Assembly (NCBI RefSeq): GCF_038006045.1
Contig: NZ_JBBOUK010000001.1
Coordinates: 599,001-663,000 of the forward strand
Length of the DNA stretch: 64,000 nucleotides
Source: Exiguobacterium sp. FSL W8-0210
GTDB taxonomy: Bacteria; Bacillota; Bacilli; Exiguobacteriales; Exiguobacteriaceae
Reading direction: 5' to 3'
Shown here piece by piece: positions 21,905 to 48,426 of the stretch (positions are counted from its first letter, which is position 1; every line of letters begins with the position of its first letter). The notes under the pieces are model-generated. The model was not told the origin of the DNA. It saw nothing but the letters and a program-made list of their open reading frames with translations, and did no database searches. Made by a program: the position numbers and the translations under genes.

Positions 21905-22181
21905 AACAACGACGTTGAAGGGAAGAGTAACACCTTGTACGACCGTATAGCGAGCTGGGGATGGTGAGAGCCCAGTCGGAAGCAAGATGCGAAGAACCTC
22001 CCGGAGTCGCTACCCGAACCCGAATGTAAGTAGGCGTAGCCGGAGTTGCCTGTCCGTTATCATATGGCCGAAGATGAAGTGATTCGTCTTTTGAGTGAGC
22101 AACATCGTTGCTAACATGGGTGGTACCGCGGAACCGAGTCTTTCGTCCCATATTCTTGGGAAAGAAGGGCTCTTTTTTATG
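21905..22181 (+). promoter_or_regulatory. T-box riboswitch (Asn) upstream of asnA
   Basis: The leader contains the T-box core GGGTGGTACCGCGG (22118-22132), which forms the antiterminator bulge that senses the 3' end of uncharged tRNA. A competing terminator follows at about 22136-22180 (arm GAGTCTTTCGTCCCA, then T run). The 5' part can form Stem I, beginning near GAAGGGAAGAGTAAC. An AAC triplet at 21995-21997 in GAAGAACCTC is the probable Asn specifier. Uncharged tRNA-Asn would turn asnA on. The class is clear; the specifier position is inferred. Confidence 0.88.
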
Positions 22182-41669: not shown

Positions 41670-42299
41670 TTATTTGACGAGATTATGCTTGAAGGCATAG
41701 ACGACAGCTTGTGTACGGTCTACGACATCGAGTTTCGATAAGATGTTCGAGACGTGTGTCTTAACGGTTTTTAAGGAAATGAATAATTCGTCTGCGATTT
41801 CTTGGTTCGCCATACCACGAGCCATCAATTGAAGAACTTCCTGCTCACGTTCCGTCAAATCGTCATGCAAGTGTGTCGTAGGACGACGAAGACGTTCCAT
41901 CATTTTACCGGTCACTTGTGCTGCCATGACAGATTGACCGTTTGCCGTCTTGCGAATCGCTTCTGCGATGTCAAAGGCGCTAGCCGTTTTTAAGACATAA
42001 CTCATCGCACCGGCTTCAATGACAGGATAAACTTTCTCATCATCAAGAAAACTCGTCACGACGAGAATTTTTGCTTCCGGCCAGTCTTTGCGGATCAGTC
42101 GTGTTCCTTCGACACCATCGACTGGTTCCATCACTAAATCCATCAAGATGACATCCGGTCGGTGTTCAAGCGCAAGCAAGGCTCCTGCTTGACCATCCGA
42201 CGCTTCGGCGACGACCTCGATGTCTGGTTGTGTGGAGAGGAAAGCAGACACACCGGCCCGGACCATCTCGTGATCATCTACTAATAATACGCGTATCAT
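41670..42299 (-). CDS. liaR: Response regulator LiaR (NarL family)
   Basis: This 209-residue protein has a receiver domain with VDDHEMVRAGV, phospho-acceptor D54 (ILMDLVMEP) and KT at the expected Lys site, plus a LuxR-type HTH at the C-terminus (ADELFISLKTVKTHVSNILSKL). It is the last gene of a lia operon and is coupled to liaS (ATGA). LiaR activates envelope-stress genes including its own operon in B. subtilis. Confidence 0.9.
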   Translation of the reverse strand: MIRVLLVDDHEMVRAGVSAFLSTQPDIEVVAEASDGQAGALLALEHRPDVILMDLVMEPVDGVEGTRLIRKDWPEAKILVVTSFLDDEKVYPVIEAGAMSYVLKTASAFDIAEAIRKTANGQSVMAAQVTGKMMERLRRPTTHLHDDLTEREQEVLQLMARGMANQEIADELFISLKTVKTHVSNILSKLDVVDRTQAVVYAFKHNLVK

Positions 42300-43321
42300 G
42301 CTTGCACCATCCGATCTTTTCTAAGTTTGACTTCGATTTGGGTTCCTTGTCCCGGAACACTGACAAGACGAATCGTTCCGCCCATCTCAGCCGTTCGTTC
42401 CCGCATCGAATTAATGCCATAAGAGGCAAGTTTTTTTTCATCAACGACGAATCCAACACCATCATCGTTCATGCTTAAAATGATCGTTTCGTTGAATTGT
42501 CGGAGTTCGATATCCATATGAGACGCTTTCGCGTGACGTAAGGCATTCGTCAATCCTTCTTGAACGATCCGGAATAACTCGTTTTCGATTTGTCGTGGAA
42601 GTGACATCTCTTCTAACTTCCAACTCAATTGTGTGGACTGCTTTCTAGATAATTCTTCGAGCAGTTGCGAAAGTCCTTGTTGTAACGTCATTCCTTCGAG
42701 TTCGACAGGGCGAAGCTGAAGTAAGAGGGAGCGCATTTCAGATTGCGCCGTTTGCGCCATCGTCTCGACCATCTCAATCTGTTTGGCAGCAGCTTCAGGT
42801 TGAGACAGAATCGTCTGTTTAGCTGCTGTCGTCATCATCGAGATGGCATAGAGCTGTTGCGAAACGGAATCGTGTAAATCACGTGCGAGTCGTTTTCGTT
42901 CTTCCGTGACGGCTTGAACTCTTGCTTGTTCAACATGTTGTGGACGTGTACTGATTTTTTGGACGGTCTCGACTTGTTCGTCGATACGTTTTCCAATCCG
43001 CGACAAGCGCGTCAACGTATGAAAGTAGGGACCCGGAACGATCGTCACATCTTTTCCTTGCTCGAGTTCAATGATGGCAGTCGTGACACGTTTGAAGTCA
43101 CGTCGTAAGAAAAAGTAATGCATGCTACCGATGGCAAGCGGTAGTAATAACGAGAGTCCGATAACGAGTAGAAGGACAGGGAAATCTTGTTGACGGACGA
43201 ATAGGACATGCCAATCGACTTGTCGTGTACTTAAGAATAACAACGTTGTCATGACAGCCGTCAAAAAGCCCGTCATGACTTGGAGGGCAATGACACCAAG
43301 CGGGAATTGATCACGCTTCAT
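42296..43321 (-). CDS. liaS: Sensor histidine kinase LiaS
   Basis: This 341-residue intramembrane-sensing kinase has two N-terminal helices (about 8-31 and 47-72) with almost no extracellular loop. It continues with a coiled linker, HisKA_3 with H150 in ARDLHDSVSQQLYAI, and a HATPase domain. LiaS is held in check by LiaF and responds to lipid II-cycle disruption. It overlaps liaF by 4 bases. Confidence 0.9.
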   Translation of the reverse strand: MKRDQFPLGVIALQVMTGFLTAVMTTLLFLSTRQVDWHVLFVRQQDFPVLLLVIGLSLLLPLAIGSMHYFFLRRDFKRVTTAIIELEQGKDVTIVPGPYFHTLTRLSRIGKRIDEQVETVQKISTRPQHVEQARVQAVTEERKRLARDLHDSVSQQLYAISMMTTAAKQTILSQPEAAAKQIEMVETMAQTAQSEMRSLLLQLRPVELEGMTLQQGLSQLLEELSRKQSTQLSWKLEEMSLPRQIENELFRIVQEGLTNALRHAKASHMDIELRQFNETIILSMNDDGVGFVVDEKKLASYGINSMRERTAEMGGTIRLVSVPGQGTQIEVKLRKDRMVQA

Positions 43322-44037
43322 ATCGAAGACACCTCCACGTTGCCAATACCGAGCATGACATGAATGCGAACCTTCCGCGTCGCTTCACCGTATTCCGGTG
43401 CCCGGAATTGAATGCGTCGATTAAAGAAGGTCGGAATCCGGCGGATGTCCGTCTTGACGCTTCCGAAGCCGATTGACGTGTCGAGTGTATAGTCGTAGCC
43501 GGACGGTAAAAGAATTCGGACGTCCCCGACGACACCACTGACGACGATCAAGGTCTCACCTTCCGGGACGTAAGCGTGCGTCAAATCGATTTCTAAATCC
43601 TTGACGATGAACTGTTCACTCAAATCCTGTAAGACGTATGGTGCATCGGCTTGAGTCGAGAAGGAGTAAGCGGGTTGAATCTTGATCCCTTCCTCTTCGT
43701 ATTGATGCGGAGCAATCCGTGAAAATAAAAATTCGCGGACAGAATGTCGTGTCACGAGAATGATCCCAAGATAGAGCAAGATACCAGCAATGACAAAACC
43801 GATGGCAGCCGAACTAAGGACGACGCCAGCAAGAATGATCGTACCGACGATGTAGAAGAGGATTGCTAATTTTTCATGATTGCGTCGTCGGAAATGAATC
43901 CCGACATAATACAGCAGGAACGGAAATAAGACACCAAACAATACATTTCCTGCACCGGACAATAGGTCATAGAACAGACCGAGGGCGAACAGGATCGATA
44001 CGTAACCGACCAGTTGTTTCGTACTTAATCGTCGCAC
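43318..44037 (-). CDS. liaF: LiaF, inhibitor of LiaSR signalling
   Basis: This 239-residue protein has about four N-terminal membrane helices and a C-terminal DUF2154/LiaF domain ending in RKVRIHVMLGIGNVEVSSI. The GTG start at 44037 follows AAAGGAG; an in-frame ATG 12 codons earlier lacks such spacing. LiaF binds LiaS and keeps it off without stress. Confidence 0.88.
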   Translation of the reverse strand: MRRLSTKQLVGYVSILFALGLFYDLLSGAGNVLFGVLFPFLLYYVGIHFRRRNHEKLAILFYIVGTIILAGVVLSSAAIGFVIAGILLYLGIILVTRHSVREFLFSRIAPHQYEEEGIKIQPAYSFSTQADAPYVLQDLSEQFIVKDLEIDLTHAYVPEGETLIVVSGVVGDVRILLPSGYDYTLDTSIGFGSVKTDIRRIPTFFNRRIQFRAPEYGEATRKVRIHVMLGIGNVEVSSI

Positions 44038-44096
44038 GATCAATCTCCTTTCTAACATGACAAAGGGAGGCATACGCCTCCTTCATCATTGACTGC

Positions 44097-44714
44097 TTAT
44101 TGGTGAATGCGGCGTTCGAGTTCAGCAATACGCGCATCGATATCATCTTCATCAACGGCTGGTTGTTTTGCTTCAGGCTCTTCTGCCGTGAACGGATGTG
44201 CTTCTTCTTTTATAGTAGCATTTGGTTCGCGATCTAGCACCTGGTTCATCTTGTTTTTTAAGTTCGAGACGTTTTCACGCATCATCCATTCGTACCGTTT
44301 GTTTTGTAGATCTTCGAGCTTCAAATTCAACTCGAGGGCTTCACGTTCCAATTCATTCAGCTCGCGTTTCGTCTCAGCGACGAGTTCTTCGAAGAAGCGG
44401 TATTGCTCCCCATAATGCTTCGATTCGATGGCTGCGCGCTCAGCCAGTTGTTGTTCACCGGCTTTGTTTGCGATTTCGACTTGCTTGAAGCGTTTATCTG
44501 CTAAATCCTTCGCTTCTTCTTGTTTATGCGTTAATTCTTGCAGTAATGTCCGTTGACGCTCGAGAAGTCGATCAATCTCTTTTAAATCAGCTTCTGTAGA
44601 TCGAATATGACGAACGAGCTTTTTAGCAGGTACTTCACCCTGTTCGGCTGCTTTTTTGACTTCTGTCATCATTTGTGTCGCAAAATCGTTAAGTTGATCA
44701 AATACGTTTTTCAT
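44097..44714 (-). CDS. PspA/IM30 family protein (LiaH-like)
   Basis: This 205-residue coiled-coil protein of the PspA/LiaH family has long heptad-like helices (from DFATQMMTEVKKAAEQ through ELEREALELNLKLEDLQNKR). It would form rings or rods that protect the membrane from the inside. AAGGAGG lies before the ATG at 44714. The place in the operon equals liaH. The last 30 residues are variable and acidic. Confidence 0.85.
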   Translation of the reverse strand: MKNVFDQLNDFATQMMTEVKKAAEQGEVPAKKLVRHIRSTEADLKEIDRLLERQRTLLQELTHKQEEAKDLADKRFKQVEIANKAGEQQLAERAAIESKHYGEQYRFFEELVAETKRELNELEREALELNLKLEDLQNKRYEWMMRENVSNLKNKMNQVLDREPNATIKEEAHPFTAEEPEAKQPAVDEDDIDARIAELERRIHQ

Positions 44715-44765
44715 GAAAAAATTCCTCCTTGGAAGTGGCGAATGATATCGGGTCACACATTTTGA

Positions 44766-45143
44766 TTAGAAACGTTTTTCGTCTAAGTCTTTCCAGTCTG
44801 CTTCGAAATGTGTCGTTGATGTACGGCGACGGTTAAAGAGATCTTGAACATTGACACGCTGTAGTTTCATACGCATGTAACCGACGTACAATGCGATGGC
44901 TGCTGCGATTCCGATGACTGCCCAGATGTTCGAGAGGGCAAGTCCGATTCCGATGGCTGCTAGGAATCCGAAGCCGAGTTTTGCTGGCCATTTGTTCGAT
45001 TGCATGAACTTACTGATCGAATAGAACGCGAGTAACGCCCCTAAGCCAAGTCCGATCATATGCGGTAATGTTCCGATGACGACGGCAAGTAATGCCAGTC
45101 CGGCGAGAATCATCACCAGTTGTTTTCCTTTCGATTGCTTCAT
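44766..45143 (-). CDS. Small membrane protein at the LiaI position
   Basis: This 125-residue protein has about three helices in its first 90 residues (MILAGLALLAVVIGTLP, GLGALLAFYSISKF, FGFLAAIGIGLALSNIW and a fourth weaker segment) and a charged tail. It precedes the pspA/liaH gene, so it is the likely membrane anchor of LiaH, as LiaI is in B. subtilis (similar length). I see little direct sequence evidence beyond size, topology and place. Confidence 0.6.
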   Translation of the reverse strand: MKQSKGKQLVMILAGLALLAVVIGTLPHMIGLGLGALLAFYSISKFMQSNKWPAKLGFGFLAAIGIGLALSNIWAVIGIAAAIALYVGYMRMKLQRVNVQDLFNRRRTSTTHFEADWKDLDEKRF

Positions 45144-45323
45144 GAGGAAGCCTCCCTTGTGTTGATACCTTTATGATACGGGAGTCCTTTTATTCCTACG
45201 ACACTCTTTGGACCGTATTTGCTCTCGGGCTTAAGGCGGAGAGAAGGTCTGACTTTAAGGGAAGCGCTATCAGCACCAATGATTCATGTGATACTCTATA
45301 AGGGAATCGAATCGAGAGGAGTG

Positions 45324-45398
45324 ATGTTGATGAGTGCAACAATCAACGCTAAAAAAGTAACGTGTGTCGGAAACCAGGGAGGGGTTTCCCTCCCTTAA
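45324..45398 (+). CDS. 24-codon leader ORF ahead of rsgA
   Basis: A short ORF (start ATG 45324, or 45330) encodes about 24 residues, reading MSATINAKKVTCVGNQGGVSLP from the second ATG. GAGAGGAG precedes it. It ends 18 bases before rsgA. Its last codons overlap two competing hairpins, so it may be a regulatory leader and not a functional peptide. Confidence 0.5.
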   Translation: MLMSATINAKKVTCVGNQGGVSLP

Positions 45399-45409
45399 AT
45401 CAGAGGAGG
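45369..45409 (+). promoter_or_regulatory. Mutually exclusive hairpins in the rsgA leader
   Basis: GGAAACC (45369-45375) can pair with GGTTTCC (45383-45389), or AGGGAGGG (45376-45383) with CCCTCCCT (45388-45395). CCCTCC can also pair with the rsgA ribosome site GAGGAGG (45403-45409). The choices exclude each other, and the leader ORF stop lies among them. Confidence 0.5.
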
Positions 45410-45416
45410 AAACCAT

Positions 45417-46466
45417 TTGAACGAATGGGGTATACCACCTGTCTACGAAGCGACAGGAACAGAACGATTAGGACGGATCATAGCCGTCTACCAAGCGCAT
45501 TATCGCGTCATGACGGAAACAGGAGAATCGCTGAGCGAACTGTCTGGTAAATTGCGTTTTCAATCGGGAACGAAAGCTGAATTGCCAGCGGTTGGTGACT
45601 GGATCATCCAAACAGAGCGAGAGCCAGGCAAAGGACGGATCGAACGTGTCTTGCCACGATCTTCTCAATTTTCCCGAAAAGCGGCAGGAACGGAAACCGA
45701 GGAACAAATCATCTGCGCGAATGTCGACGTTGCCTTGCTCGTCATGGCTTTTGGACATGACTTCAACGTCCGTCGACTGGAACGTTATTTAACGGTTGCT
45801 TGGGATGCAGGGGTGACACCAATCATCGTCCTGACGAAAAAAAGTTTGATGCCGTCGATTGAAACGGAACTGCAGGCTGTCGAAGCGATCGCGTTCGGAA
45901 CACCAATCCTTGCTGTTGATTCTTTAACTGGTGACGGATTAGAGGAGTTGCGTGAACAGTTACAAATCAAGCAGACGATCGTGTTAGTTGGGTCGTCTGG
46001 CGTCGGGAAGTCGACGCTCGTCAATGCTTTAGCTGGAGAACAGTTAATGGAGACGGGTGGCGTACGAGAAGACGATGAACGCGGACGTCACACGACGACA
46101 CATCGCGAACTGAAACGACTATCGAGCGGTCTATTGCTCGTTGATACACCGGGGATGCGAGAATTGGCCTTATGGGATGGAAGTGACGGTTTATCGTCGA
46201 CGTTTTCCGATATTGAGGAGCTTGCTGAAAACTGTCGTTTCCGAGACTGTGAACATGATAAGGAACCGGGCTGTGCCGTTCGGACAGCTTTAGAAGATGG
46301 CACACTAACTGCTGAGCGCTGGAATAGCTTCGTCAAGCTAAAACGAGAAATCGCTTATGCGGAACGCAAGCAAAATGTGGCGTTGCAGGCGGCGGAGAAA
46401 GAAAAGTGGAAAAAAATCCACAAGCAGGCTCAAGCGCATACGAAAGTGAAGTATCAAAAGCGATAA
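45417..46466 (+). CDS. rsgA: Ribosome small-subunit-dependent GTPase A
   Basis: RsgA (YjeQ) helps late 30S assembly and is a circularly permuted GTPase. The 349-residue protein has an OB-fold at the N-terminus (GRIIAVYQAHYRVMTETGE), then G4 (VLTKKSL), then the P-loop GSSGVGKSTLVNAL and G3 DTPGMRE. A zinc site follows (CRFRDCEHDKEPGC). It starts with TTG at 45417 after GAGGAGG. Confidence 0.95.
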   Translation: MNEWGIPPVYEATGTERLGRIIAVYQAHYRVMTETGESLSELSGKLRFQSGTKAELPAVGDWIIQTEREPGKGRIERVLPRSSQFSRKAAGTETEEQIICANVDVALLVMAFGHDFNVRRLERYLTVAWDAGVTPIIVLTKKSLMPSIETELQAVEAIAFGTPILAVDSLTGDGLEELREQLQIKQTIVLVGSSGVGKSTLVNALAGEQLMETGGVREDDERGRHTTTHRELKRLSSGLLLVDTPGMRELALWDGSDGLSSTFSDIEELAENCRFRDCEHDKEPGCAVRTALEDGTLTAERWNSFVKLKREIAYAERKQNVALQAAEKEKWKKIHKQAQAHTKVKYQKR

Positions 46467-46538: not shown

Positions 46539-48239
46539 TTATTCTTTTGAAAGGAATTCATTTGTTTCTGTATGGAACGGCACGTTACCCGTCAACGCAT
46601 CAAGACGATGTAAGTCGGATTGAATCGCTTCAGGGTCACTTCGGCGCGCGTTTCGTACCGTGGCCGTTCCGACCGGATGATCGTTGAATCCAGTCGTTAA
46701 ATCAAACGTCCGATTCGACAGCCGATCGGTAAAATAACGATCGTGAGAGACGAAGAGGAGTTCACCAGGGAAAACATCGAGGGCGGCTTCGATTTGTTCA
46801 CGAGTCGCAAGGTCCAAATAGTTCGTTGGTTCATCGAGAATAAGCAAGTGAGCACCAGAAAAATACAGACGTAAGAAAGCGATCCGACATTTCTCACCCA
46901 TACTAGCGTCGGAAATCGACCGGTAAACATCATCGCGACGGAATAAAAAACAGGCGAGCAACGTCCGGGCGTCCGTTTCACTCATCGTGCCGTACTCAAG
47001 TAATGCCTCTAACAACGTACCGGATGTCGGTAAGTGGGAAAGGGCTTGTGAAAAATAGCCGGTCTTCAATCGAGGATGACGGATTACGTTCCCTTGATGA
47101 TGAGCATATTCGCCCTCGATGAGACGCAGTAAGGTCGTTTTCCCGCTTCCATTCGGTCCGATGACAGCAATTCGGTCACCACGTTCTACCGTAAACGAAA
47201 CGTCGTTTAGGATCGGTTTCGTCTCATGCATGAAAGAGACACGTTCGAACGAAATCAGTCGTTTCGCACGAATCGCTTCATGTTCGAATGCGACGTGAAC
47301 AGTCGGTGCAACCTGTGGTTTTTGTACACGATCCTCGAGTAGACGCTCGAGTTGCTGCTCTTTTGCCTTGACCTTTGTCGCATGTTTAGCAGCCTTCTTT
47401 TTCGCATAGGGATCTCGTTCACTCGCTTGATTCGAGGCTTTTTGATGCCATTGCCGATAACCCTGAATCATGCGTGTCAGCTCTTTACGTGTGCGTTCTT
47501 GTTTTTCGTACGCTCGTTGTTGCGACAGAGCTTGATGTTCCTTTTGTTCTTTATAGGACTGATAGTTTCCGCTGTATCGCGTTGCCCCTGATTCAGATAA
47601 TTCAATGACGGCATCAGCTGTTGCGTCGATGAAGAATCGTTCGTGTGAGACATAGAGAATCGAGGTCCGTGACATGTTGACCCATTCCGTGAGCCACTCG
47701 AGCGTCTCTTGATCCAGATGATTCGTAGGTTCATCGAGAATGATGAAATCAGGTCGTGACAGAAGCAGGCAGGCAAGTTGGAGGCGCGTCTGTTCACCAC
47801 CGCTTAAACTGGATGCTTTGTGTGTCCAGAGTGCTTCCTCTAATTTGACTTCTTTTAAGACGCGTGTTGCATCTGCTTCAAGCGAGAAGGCGTCCTGATC
47901 GAGTGCTTGTTGATAGATCGTCAAGTCACCATTCATGGCATTAGCGCGAAGTTGATAACGAACCGCATCCGCTCGTTCGACGACATCAAGAACGGTGTGA
48001 TCGCCCGCTACGAAGTGTTGTGATAGTAGACCGAGTTTTTTGTAATGACGCTTGATCGAACCGTCAGTCGGCTGAAGTTGGTCAGCGATCAAGTGTAACA
48101 GTGTCGTTTTTCCGATGCCGTTCGGACCGATTAAGGCGACATGTTCACCGGTATGAATATGAAAAGAAACGTCCGAGAAAAGACGTCGTTCGTCGTAGTC
48201 CATCGATAGGTGTTGGATCGTAAGTGTTTCAGTAGGCAT
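46539..48239 (-). CDS. ABC-F family ATPase, antibiotic-resistance (ribosome protection) type
   Basis: This 566-residue protein has two ABC domains and no membrane part. Domain 1 has Walker A GPNGIGKTT, LSGGEQTR and Walker B IILDEPTNHLD. Domain 2 has GPNGSGKTT, a changed signature SMGEKCR and LLILDEPTNYLD. The ~80-residue linker (about 255-335) is long and basic, with KELTRMIQGYRQWHQK. ABC-F proteins of this type push drugs off the ribosome. The start ATG at 48239 follows AAAGGAG. A leader-peptide attenuator upstream supports a drug-inducible role. Substrate drugs are unknown. Confidence 0.82.
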   Translation of the reverse strand: MPTETLTIQHLSMDYDERRLFSDVSFHIHTGEHVALIGPNGIGKTTLLHLIADQLQPTDGSIKRHYKKLGLLSQHFVAGDHTVLDVVERADAVRYQLRANAMNGDLTIYQQALDQDAFSLEADATRVLKEVKLEEALWTHKASSLSGGEQTRLQLACLLLSRPDFIILDEPTNHLDQETLEWLTEWVNMSRTSILYVSHERFFIDATADAVIELSESGATRYSGNYQSYKEQKEHQALSQQRAYEKQERTRKELTRMIQGYRQWHQKASNQASERDPYAKKKAAKHATKVKAKEQQLERLLEDRVQKPQVAPTVHVAFEHEAIRAKRLISFERVSFMHETKPILNDVSFTVERGDRIAVIGPNGSGKTTLLRLIEGEYAHHQGNVIRHPRLKTGYFSQALSHLPTSGTLLEALLEYGTMSETDARTLLACFLFRRDDVYRSISDASMGEKCRIAFLRLYFSGAHLLILDEPTNYLDLATREQIEAALDVFPGELLFVSHDRYFTDRLSNRTFDLTTGFNDHPVGTATVRNARRSDPEAIQSDLHRLDALTGNVPFHTETNEFLSKE

Positions 48240-48281
48240 AAAAGCAACTCCTTTAGTGTTCATTTCCGATAAGATGAAATG

Positions 48282-48319
48282 AAAAACACACCATCCGAAG
48301 CGAGCGGATGGTGTGCCGG
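48282..48319 (-). terminator. Attenuator terminator in the ABC-F leader
   Basis: On the minus strand CACACCATCCG (48315-48305) pairs with CGGATGGTGTG (48297-48287), followed by five T (48286-48282), 43 bases before the gene start. An upstream CGGTGTG (48362-48356) can pair with the CACACC of the 5' arm and so act as anti-terminator. Confidence 0.8.
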
Positions 48320-48426
48320 AGTGTAACTCAAAGAAGGTGCTGGCCAAAGGTTGGTCACACCGAAAAAGAGCAGACTCGTAGCGTCAGACATCCGCAACTG
48401 CATTGCGAAAGAGATGATTTCATTCA

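Follow-up and report, generated by a model that had tools for sequence, protein, structure and literature searches.

Introduction

Translation of a short leader ORF can decide whether the next ribosome site is exposed. Erm-type leaders (ermBL, ermCL) are closed by default, and drug-dependent arrest opens them. In TnaC- and Erm-type leaders, the ribosome is stalled by nascent-peptide arrest. RsgA is a GTPase with a role in 30S assembly. Here we describe a leader ORF before a second rsgA gene (rsgA2) in the window, which is the whole 64,000-nucleotide stretch of DNA analysed. Similar to erm-type attenuation, this leader combines a leader ORF with predicted mutually exclusive hairpins that would hide or expose the next ribosome site. 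Unlike erm-type leaders, its modelled default is mostly open, and its peptide differs between genera.

The report on toiL, a uORF of Escherichia coli topAI-yjhQ, describes pairing with the next Shine-Dalgarno sequence and sensing of several inhibitors (PMC12121999). Compared with toiL as presented there, the rsgA2 leader is similar in that uORF coding sequence is predicted to pair with the Shine-Dalgarno of the downstream gene (helix B:C), and in that the readout would be set by the location of a stalled ribosome and not by one arrest peptide (PMC12121999). Stalling in toiL unmasks the uORF-paired site, whereas the rsgA2 leader has an additional arm (A) inside the ORF that competes for strand B. 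For 30 of 37 distinct rsgA2 leaders the modelled free state is open, and target gene and phylum also differ from those of toiL (PMC12121999).

In Listeria, HflXr is a second ribosome-GTPase copy under a leader-ORF attenuator, rli80 (PMC6310831), and the uORFC-6-1 motif precedes hflX in Bacillales (PMC8632094). The rsgA2 locus shares with them a second copy of a ribosome-associated GTPase, a short leader ORF, and alternative structures, which at rsgA2 are predicted (PMC6310831, PMC8632094). A terminator hairpin and an RLR peptide motif are described for HflXr/uORFC-6-1 (PMC6310831, PMC8632094), but the window leader lacks both: there are 0 terminator-like sites at 45100-45500 of the window, and the window leader peptide has no R/K-X-R/K. 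The proteins differ as well, because HflX is described as ribosome splitting and RsgA acts in 30S assembly (PMC6310831, PMC8632094).

For the VmlR leader of Bacillus subtilis, the title of the report names transcription and translation attenuation, together with RNA polymerase pausing and (p)ppGpp (PMC9226507). VmlR and RsgA2 are both ribosome-acting factors of Bacilli; VmlR differs in being an ABC-F resistance gene and in the RNA polymerase pausing and (p)ppGpp named for it (PMC9226507).

No report of a leader before rsgA was found among the literature matches listed, which lie mostly outside the subscription journals. PMC2965389 makes no mention of GTPase, EngC, YjeQ, YloQ, or COG1162, and PMC6912228 has "leader peptide" in its reference list only. 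At gathering score, Rfam gave no family in the window leader, nor in leaders taken from 18 chosen rsgA2 loci. Because the nearest mechanisms (toiL, HflXr) are known and no Rfam family covers these leaders, we read leader-ORF attenuation as the known kind of control here and rsgA2 as its new target gene.

Results

The original prediction placed a 24-codon ORF and three mutually exclusive pairings before rsgA, and all elements that it named were found in place (Table 1). The product of the gene belongs to the RsgA family (TIGR00157 at 165 bits, cut-off 100; PF03193 also matched), but the gene is a second rsgA and not the canonical one. The window comes from a genome of 3.35 Mb (8 contigs). Every one of the 19 window-genus genomes (g1) has rsgA2 and, in addition, a further RsgA match with 35-39% identity. 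Thus, as in the HflXr system, a housekeeping ribosome GTPase is present in a second copy, rsgA2. At the 11 loci compared, the 120 nt upstream of the further copy look unlike the rsgA2 leader. The nearest named relatives of RsgA2 are from Exiguobacterium, and the named relatives also include cyanobacteria.

Table 1. Features of the rsgA2 leader region (window positions).
Feature	Sequence	Position	Strand	Remark
Promoter-like element, extended -10	TGTGATACT	45287-45295	+	putative, from its sequence
Leader ORF Shine-Dalgarno	GAGAGGAG	45314-45321	+	8 nt before ATG 45330
Leader ORF	MSATINAKKVTCVGNQGGVSLP	45330-45398	+	22 codons; stop TAA 45396-45398
Arm A	AGGGAGGG	45376-45383	+	5' side of hairpin A:B, inside leader ORF
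Leader part of helix B:C	GGTTTCC-C-TCC	45383-45393	+	pairs with rsgA2 site in the alternative helix
Arm B	CCCTCCCT	45388-45395	+	3' side of hairpin A:B; contains anti-Shine-Dalgarno stretch
Arm C	AGAGGAGG + AAACC	45402-45414	+	rsgA2 Shine-Dalgarno (45402-45409) plus AAACC; pairing part GGAGGAAACC (45405-45414)
rsgA2		45417-46466	+	second rsgA, long form; encodes a GTPase of 349 aa and starts with TTG

Several other features of the gene and its surroundings were recorded. The motif LTKKSLM in RsgA2 (45417-46466) lacks the (N/T)KxD aspartate in 19/19 g1 genomes (TKKS, TKRS, or TKKG). This guanine-specificity aspartate is present in 19/19 genomes of the sister genus (g2), in 38/38 other relatives, and in 11/11 further RsgA copies. 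One further RsgA match (L023, G010:C14:1296227-1297120) has two in-frame TGA codons, which the other 18 genomes do not have. A palindrome, CCATT-TGAACG-AATGG, spans the TTG start (45413-45428) and is near-invariant in g1 (18/19; CCAAT in L016). On the minus strand, a lia-like envelope-stress operon (42296-45143; lmo0954-family, LiaH-like, LiaF, and LiaS) is divergent from rsgA2, and a ribosomal-protection-type ABC-F gene (46539-48347) is convergent with it. The latter scored above the cut-off of NF000355, and the next-best models, Sal and Vga, were below theirs. Elsewhere in the window, a T-box leader was found at gathering score (21906-22153, plus strand).

Leader ORF conservation was examined in 38 genomes (19 g1 and 19 g2), which are everything returned by an order-wide search. 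One detector, which demands a purine-rich site before the leader ATG, found the leader ORF in all 38, with that site present in each and a length of 21-22 codons. Therefore, by sequence, a translatable short ORF with its own ribosome site precedes the gene in every genome, which is the general layout of uORF attenuators. The order of leader Shine-Dalgarno, ORF, rsgA2 site, and TTG is the same in 19/19 g1 and 19/19 g2 genomes, and the leader stop is 14-19 nt from the rsgA2 start. TTG is the rsgA2 start in 38/38 genomes, and a TTG start is apparent in many other Bacilli too. The 24 codons first proposed are correct when counted from ATG 45324, an in-frame alternative start present in 9/38 leaders; the start common to 38/38 is ATG 45330, which gives 22 codons. 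The leader frame is open in 38/38, frame +1 in 0/38, and frame +2 in 26/38. Because frame +2 is so often open, openness of the leader frame is moderate evidence by itself. Taken together, the alignments suggest that selection seems to preserve a translatable ORF with constant length and end. Upstream, TGn-TAnnnT strings like TGTGATACT occur at about the same place in relatives. A consensus scan of 45100-45500 returned no promoter at its threshold, so TGTGATACT is treated as a putative promoter element.

Hairpin A:B has a stem of 7-8 bp and a loop of 4 nt, and it lies within the last leader codons. Its energy in isolation is -15.2 kcal/mol in g1 and -11.0 kcal/mol in g2. Across 28 distinct aligned segments, 99.5% of the alignment cells are paired; when the partner columns are slid, pairing falls to 68-80%. 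Compensatory changes, which the original prediction proposed to look for in relatives, are present: three of seven pairs changed on both sides between the genera, one changed on one side, and three are invariant. They represent one genus-to-genus difference and not many independent events. The covariation score and the number of cells with double change were above 500/500 shuffles, while doubly changed pairs (3 vs. 2.8) and pair types (4 vs. 6) were not above shuffles. The most divergent g1 row, L018, retains the six core pairs and has lost the closing pair. The single-sequence fold of the window leader is not unusual (z -1.0), so the evidence beyond chance is comparative, consisting of the leader ORF, hairpin A:B, and the ribosome-position pattern described below. 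The hairpin string has one further match in the genome, with 2 mismatches, at 1262-1279 of the window, just past an apparent ORF end.

Arm B has a second predicted partner, the rsgA2 ribosome site. Helix B:C pairs GGTTTCC-C-TCC with GGAGGAAACC in g1 and GTCCTCC with GGAGGAT in g2, so its register is not the same in the two genera. The isolated helix has an energy of -13.3 kcal/mol in g1 and -9.5 kcal/mol in g2. Prediction and comparison thus indicate two mutually exclusive structures, A:B and B:C, that span the leader ORF and the rsgA2 site, and these two of the three original pairings are conserved in both genera. The other one, GGAAACC (45369-45375) with GGTTTCC (45383-45389), is a real pairing in the window, but GGAAACC occurs in 6/38 leaders only, and it was rejected as a conserved arm.

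Ribosome position was modelled by masking a 31-nt footprint codon by codon and recording how accessible the GGAGG of the rsgA2 site remained, in folding models that leave out folding during transcription. For g1, a P site located 12-16 codons upstream of the stop gave mean accessibilities of 0.64-0.71; at 8-11 codons the mean did not exceed 0.06, and B:C there had a mean probability of 0.78-0.98. In g2, modelled mean accessibility was 0.51-0.55 at 14-16 codons and at most 0.11 at 9-12 codons. A modelled ribosome 3-7 codons before the stop re-opens the rsgA2 site, and a footprint at the last leader codons covers the site itself. A toiL-type uORF would have its gene site opened by stalling anywhere in the uORF; in the model, the rsgA2 site is open at 13 or more and at 3-7 codons before the stop and closed at 8-12.

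We scored leaders for a two-part pattern: an accessibility of at least 0.4 (open) for one or more ribosome positions that lie 13 or more codons from the stop, and of at most 0.1 (closed) for one or more positions at 8-12 codons. It was found in 36/37 distinct leaders (from 38 leader sequences) vs. 17/370 shuffles with fixed flanks, with thresholds picked after the mean accessibility profiles were known. The proposal that ribosome position could switch the pairings is in agreement with these modelled positions. An accessibility range of at least 0.5 was also seen in 36/37 real leaders, yet by itself it is common in shuffles (157/370). As free RNA, 17/18 distinct g1 leaders and 13/19 g2 leaders were modelled as open (at least 0.3), for a total of 30/37 with 7 below; L018 is the g1 leader modelled as closed. 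An erm-type closed default was thus not found in these 30 leaders.

Leader peptides differ between the two genera. The g1 peptide ends in GG[VI][SR]LP-stop (GGVSLP in 18/19 and GGIRLP in 1/19, with Pro before the stop in 19/19), and the g2 peptide ends in SANRRA-x-VL[HQ][NHY]-stop. Uncorrected pN/pS from non-independent pairs was 1.06 (g1) and 0.80 (g2) for the leader 5' of the hairpin, and 1.64 (g1) and 0.22 (g2) for the hairpin codons. The value of 0.22 could reflect the RNA stem or, alternatively, peptide constraint. In 16 distinct g2 segments, stem codons AGG, GTC, and CTC are invariant, and loop codon GCN varies at its third base. The codon frame of GGAGG in arm A differs between g1 and g2, and that of CCTCC in arm B is common to both. 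Given that the peptide differs between g1 and g2, ribosome position is probably more important than the peptide, and the leader peptide itself is probably unimportant. A conserved arrest peptide of the erm type was not found in the two genera, where the peptides differ and pN/pS before the hairpin is 1.06 and 0.80.

Outside the two genera, rsgA2 is widespread in Bacilli. RsgA2 matches at E 1e-45 or better occur in 187/398 Bacilli genomes, of which 149 are outside the two genera. A wider set of 100 loci was drawn from 99 of these 149 genomes, from the best-scoring among the matches listed; 99 were kept after removal of one locus that lacked a usable start. The same detector found a leader ORF at 66/99 loci vs. 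15/91 control genes (Fisher P 1.6e-12, which is optimistic because the loci are related). The controls were 91 ORFs from the fetched loci and the window for which a ribosome site and free upstream DNA were required, and these were not required of the test loci. No leader was detected at 33/99 loci. The leader stop is 57-185 nt from the gene start at 61/66 loci; starts were picked by ribosome-site score, probably wrongly in some cases, and the corresponding distances would then be wrong too. Among named loci outside the genus, which partially overlap the fetched set, 37 of 38 were scored, with a leader in 22 and none in 15.

The leader peptides of other Bacilli are widely different. CCTCC occurs near the leader end at 28/66 loci, where shuffles would give 0.79. 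Most of these 28 leaders belong to a few related groups, and many read CCTCCTTT. At the leader end, ATCCTCCTTT is kept but is translated in two frames, as I-L-L in most (L107-type) and as E-S-S in L150 and L153. Pairing of the leader end with downstream sequence was tested in all 66 leaders and in 12 chosen Bacillus-type named loci. At 37/66 loci, at most 5/100 shuffles were as strong (3.3 loci expected). In the 12 Bacillus-type loci, at most 2/100 shuffles were as strong in 8, and 9-17 were as strong in 4. Leader codons around CACAGCCC at the Bacillus-type loci (L064, L066, L069-L075, L078, L082, and L084) pair with downstream GGGCTGTG, the 5' side of a hairpin. Several of these loci have a second, terminator-like hairpin after the first, and the Bacillus-type leaders resemble transcription attenuators. 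Among the 66 leader-bearing loci of other Bacilli, 21 have terminator-like hairpins with T-runs. One folding rule for all Bacilli loci gave mixed results with no uniform switch and was rejected. Consequently, beyond the two genera we claim the leader ORF and its end pairing only, with no direction of control.

Cyanobacterial rsgA2 loci (L076, L080, L081, L083, L085, and L087-L093) were inspected by eye. In many, TCCTCTGTG..CACA..GAGGA-like strings surround the ribosome site; an upstream competitor strand is visible in several.

Discussion

We lean toward the explanation that the rsgA2 leader is a cis-acting leader-ORF attenuator in which ribosome position sets rsgA2 translation. Folding models suggest three states. 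When no ribosome is present (in most leaders), or when one is held early in the ORF, A:B would form and the rsgA2 site would be open. A ribosome 8-12 codons before the stop would cover A and free B, and B would close the rsgA2 site. Once at the final codons or the stop, the ribosome would sit over the rsgA2 site itself. Because ribosome position would switch between A:B and B:C, efficient leader translation would dampen rsgA2, and rsgA2 would rise if the leader went untranslated or if an inhibitor stalled ribosomes early on it.

Translational coupling is the main rival, and we regard it as unlikely. Here ribosomes that finish the leader would reinitiate at rsgA2, so leader translation would raise rsgA2, and the hairpin would limit independent entry only. 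Coupling would suit the constant, short stop-to-start distance of 14-19 nt with a ribosome site in between, the weak TTG start in 38/38 genomes, and a site that is mostly closed in modelled free RNA in 7/37 distinct leaders. However, the modelled site is open (at least 0.3) without a ribosome in the other 30/37, so coupling would be unneeded in those leaders. The distance of 57-185 nt at 61/66 loci of other Bacilli also argues against it.

Binding of a factor to A:B, for example RsgA2 or an immature 30S subunit, is improbable, as are hairpins acting as a thermometer with an incidental leader ORF. The 3' end of 16S rRNA reads CCUCC, and arm B resembles it. Recurrence of anti-Shine-Dalgarno strings at leader ends outside the two genera (CCTCC in 28/66) is consistent with such binding, but CCUCC is needed anyway just for pairing with the ribosome site of the gene. 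The leader ORF would also be superfluous for a pure protein site, whereas the ORF is kept in 38/38 genomes and enriched in other Bacilli.

Stalling by a nascent peptide, the conserved g1 C-terminus GG[VI][SR]LP-stop, is very improbable. The near-uniform g1 ending with its invariant Pro before the stop and the pN/pS of 0.22 in g2 hairpin codons speak for it, but the sister genus has a different C-terminus, residues upstream evolve at pN/pS of about 1, and the invariant part coincides with the RNA hairpin. Peptide arrest is disfavoured because the peptide differs between genera and pN/pS is near 1 before the hairpin. Chance, with a short ORF and purine- or pyrimidine-rich strings falling at random beside a strong ribosome site, would fit the unremarkable single-sequence fold but is hardly credible and is largely refuted by conservation in two genera (leader ORF in 38/38, compensatory differences in A:B, and the pattern in 36/37 leaders vs. 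17/370 shuffles).

Under the attenuator reading, the leader is an RNA switch that persists although the peptide and part of the sequence change. Control of rsgA2 by translation state, which the original prediction considered sensible for a ribosome-assembly factor, is plausible: when translation capacity is short, extra 30S-assembly GTPase would be supplied. If this is true, a ribosome-position leader before a 30S-assembly GTPase would link translation capacity and ribosome assembly in a simple feedback loop.

A broader reading, which we put forward tentatively and with considerable doubt, sees RsgA2 as a stress paralogue of the 30S-assembly GTPase, placed in Bacilli, and perhaps in cyanobacteria, under a fast-evolving class of leader-ORF attenuators that serve as general translation-capacity sensors. 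Peptide and architecture would vary (site sequestration here, terminator-like hairpins in Bacillus), and the ORF end would pair with a downstream control element. If true, the RsgA2 system would be the 30S-assembly counterpart of HflXr. The leader also hints at what the widespread second RsgA may do: the protein is a candidate inducible protector under ribosome stress.
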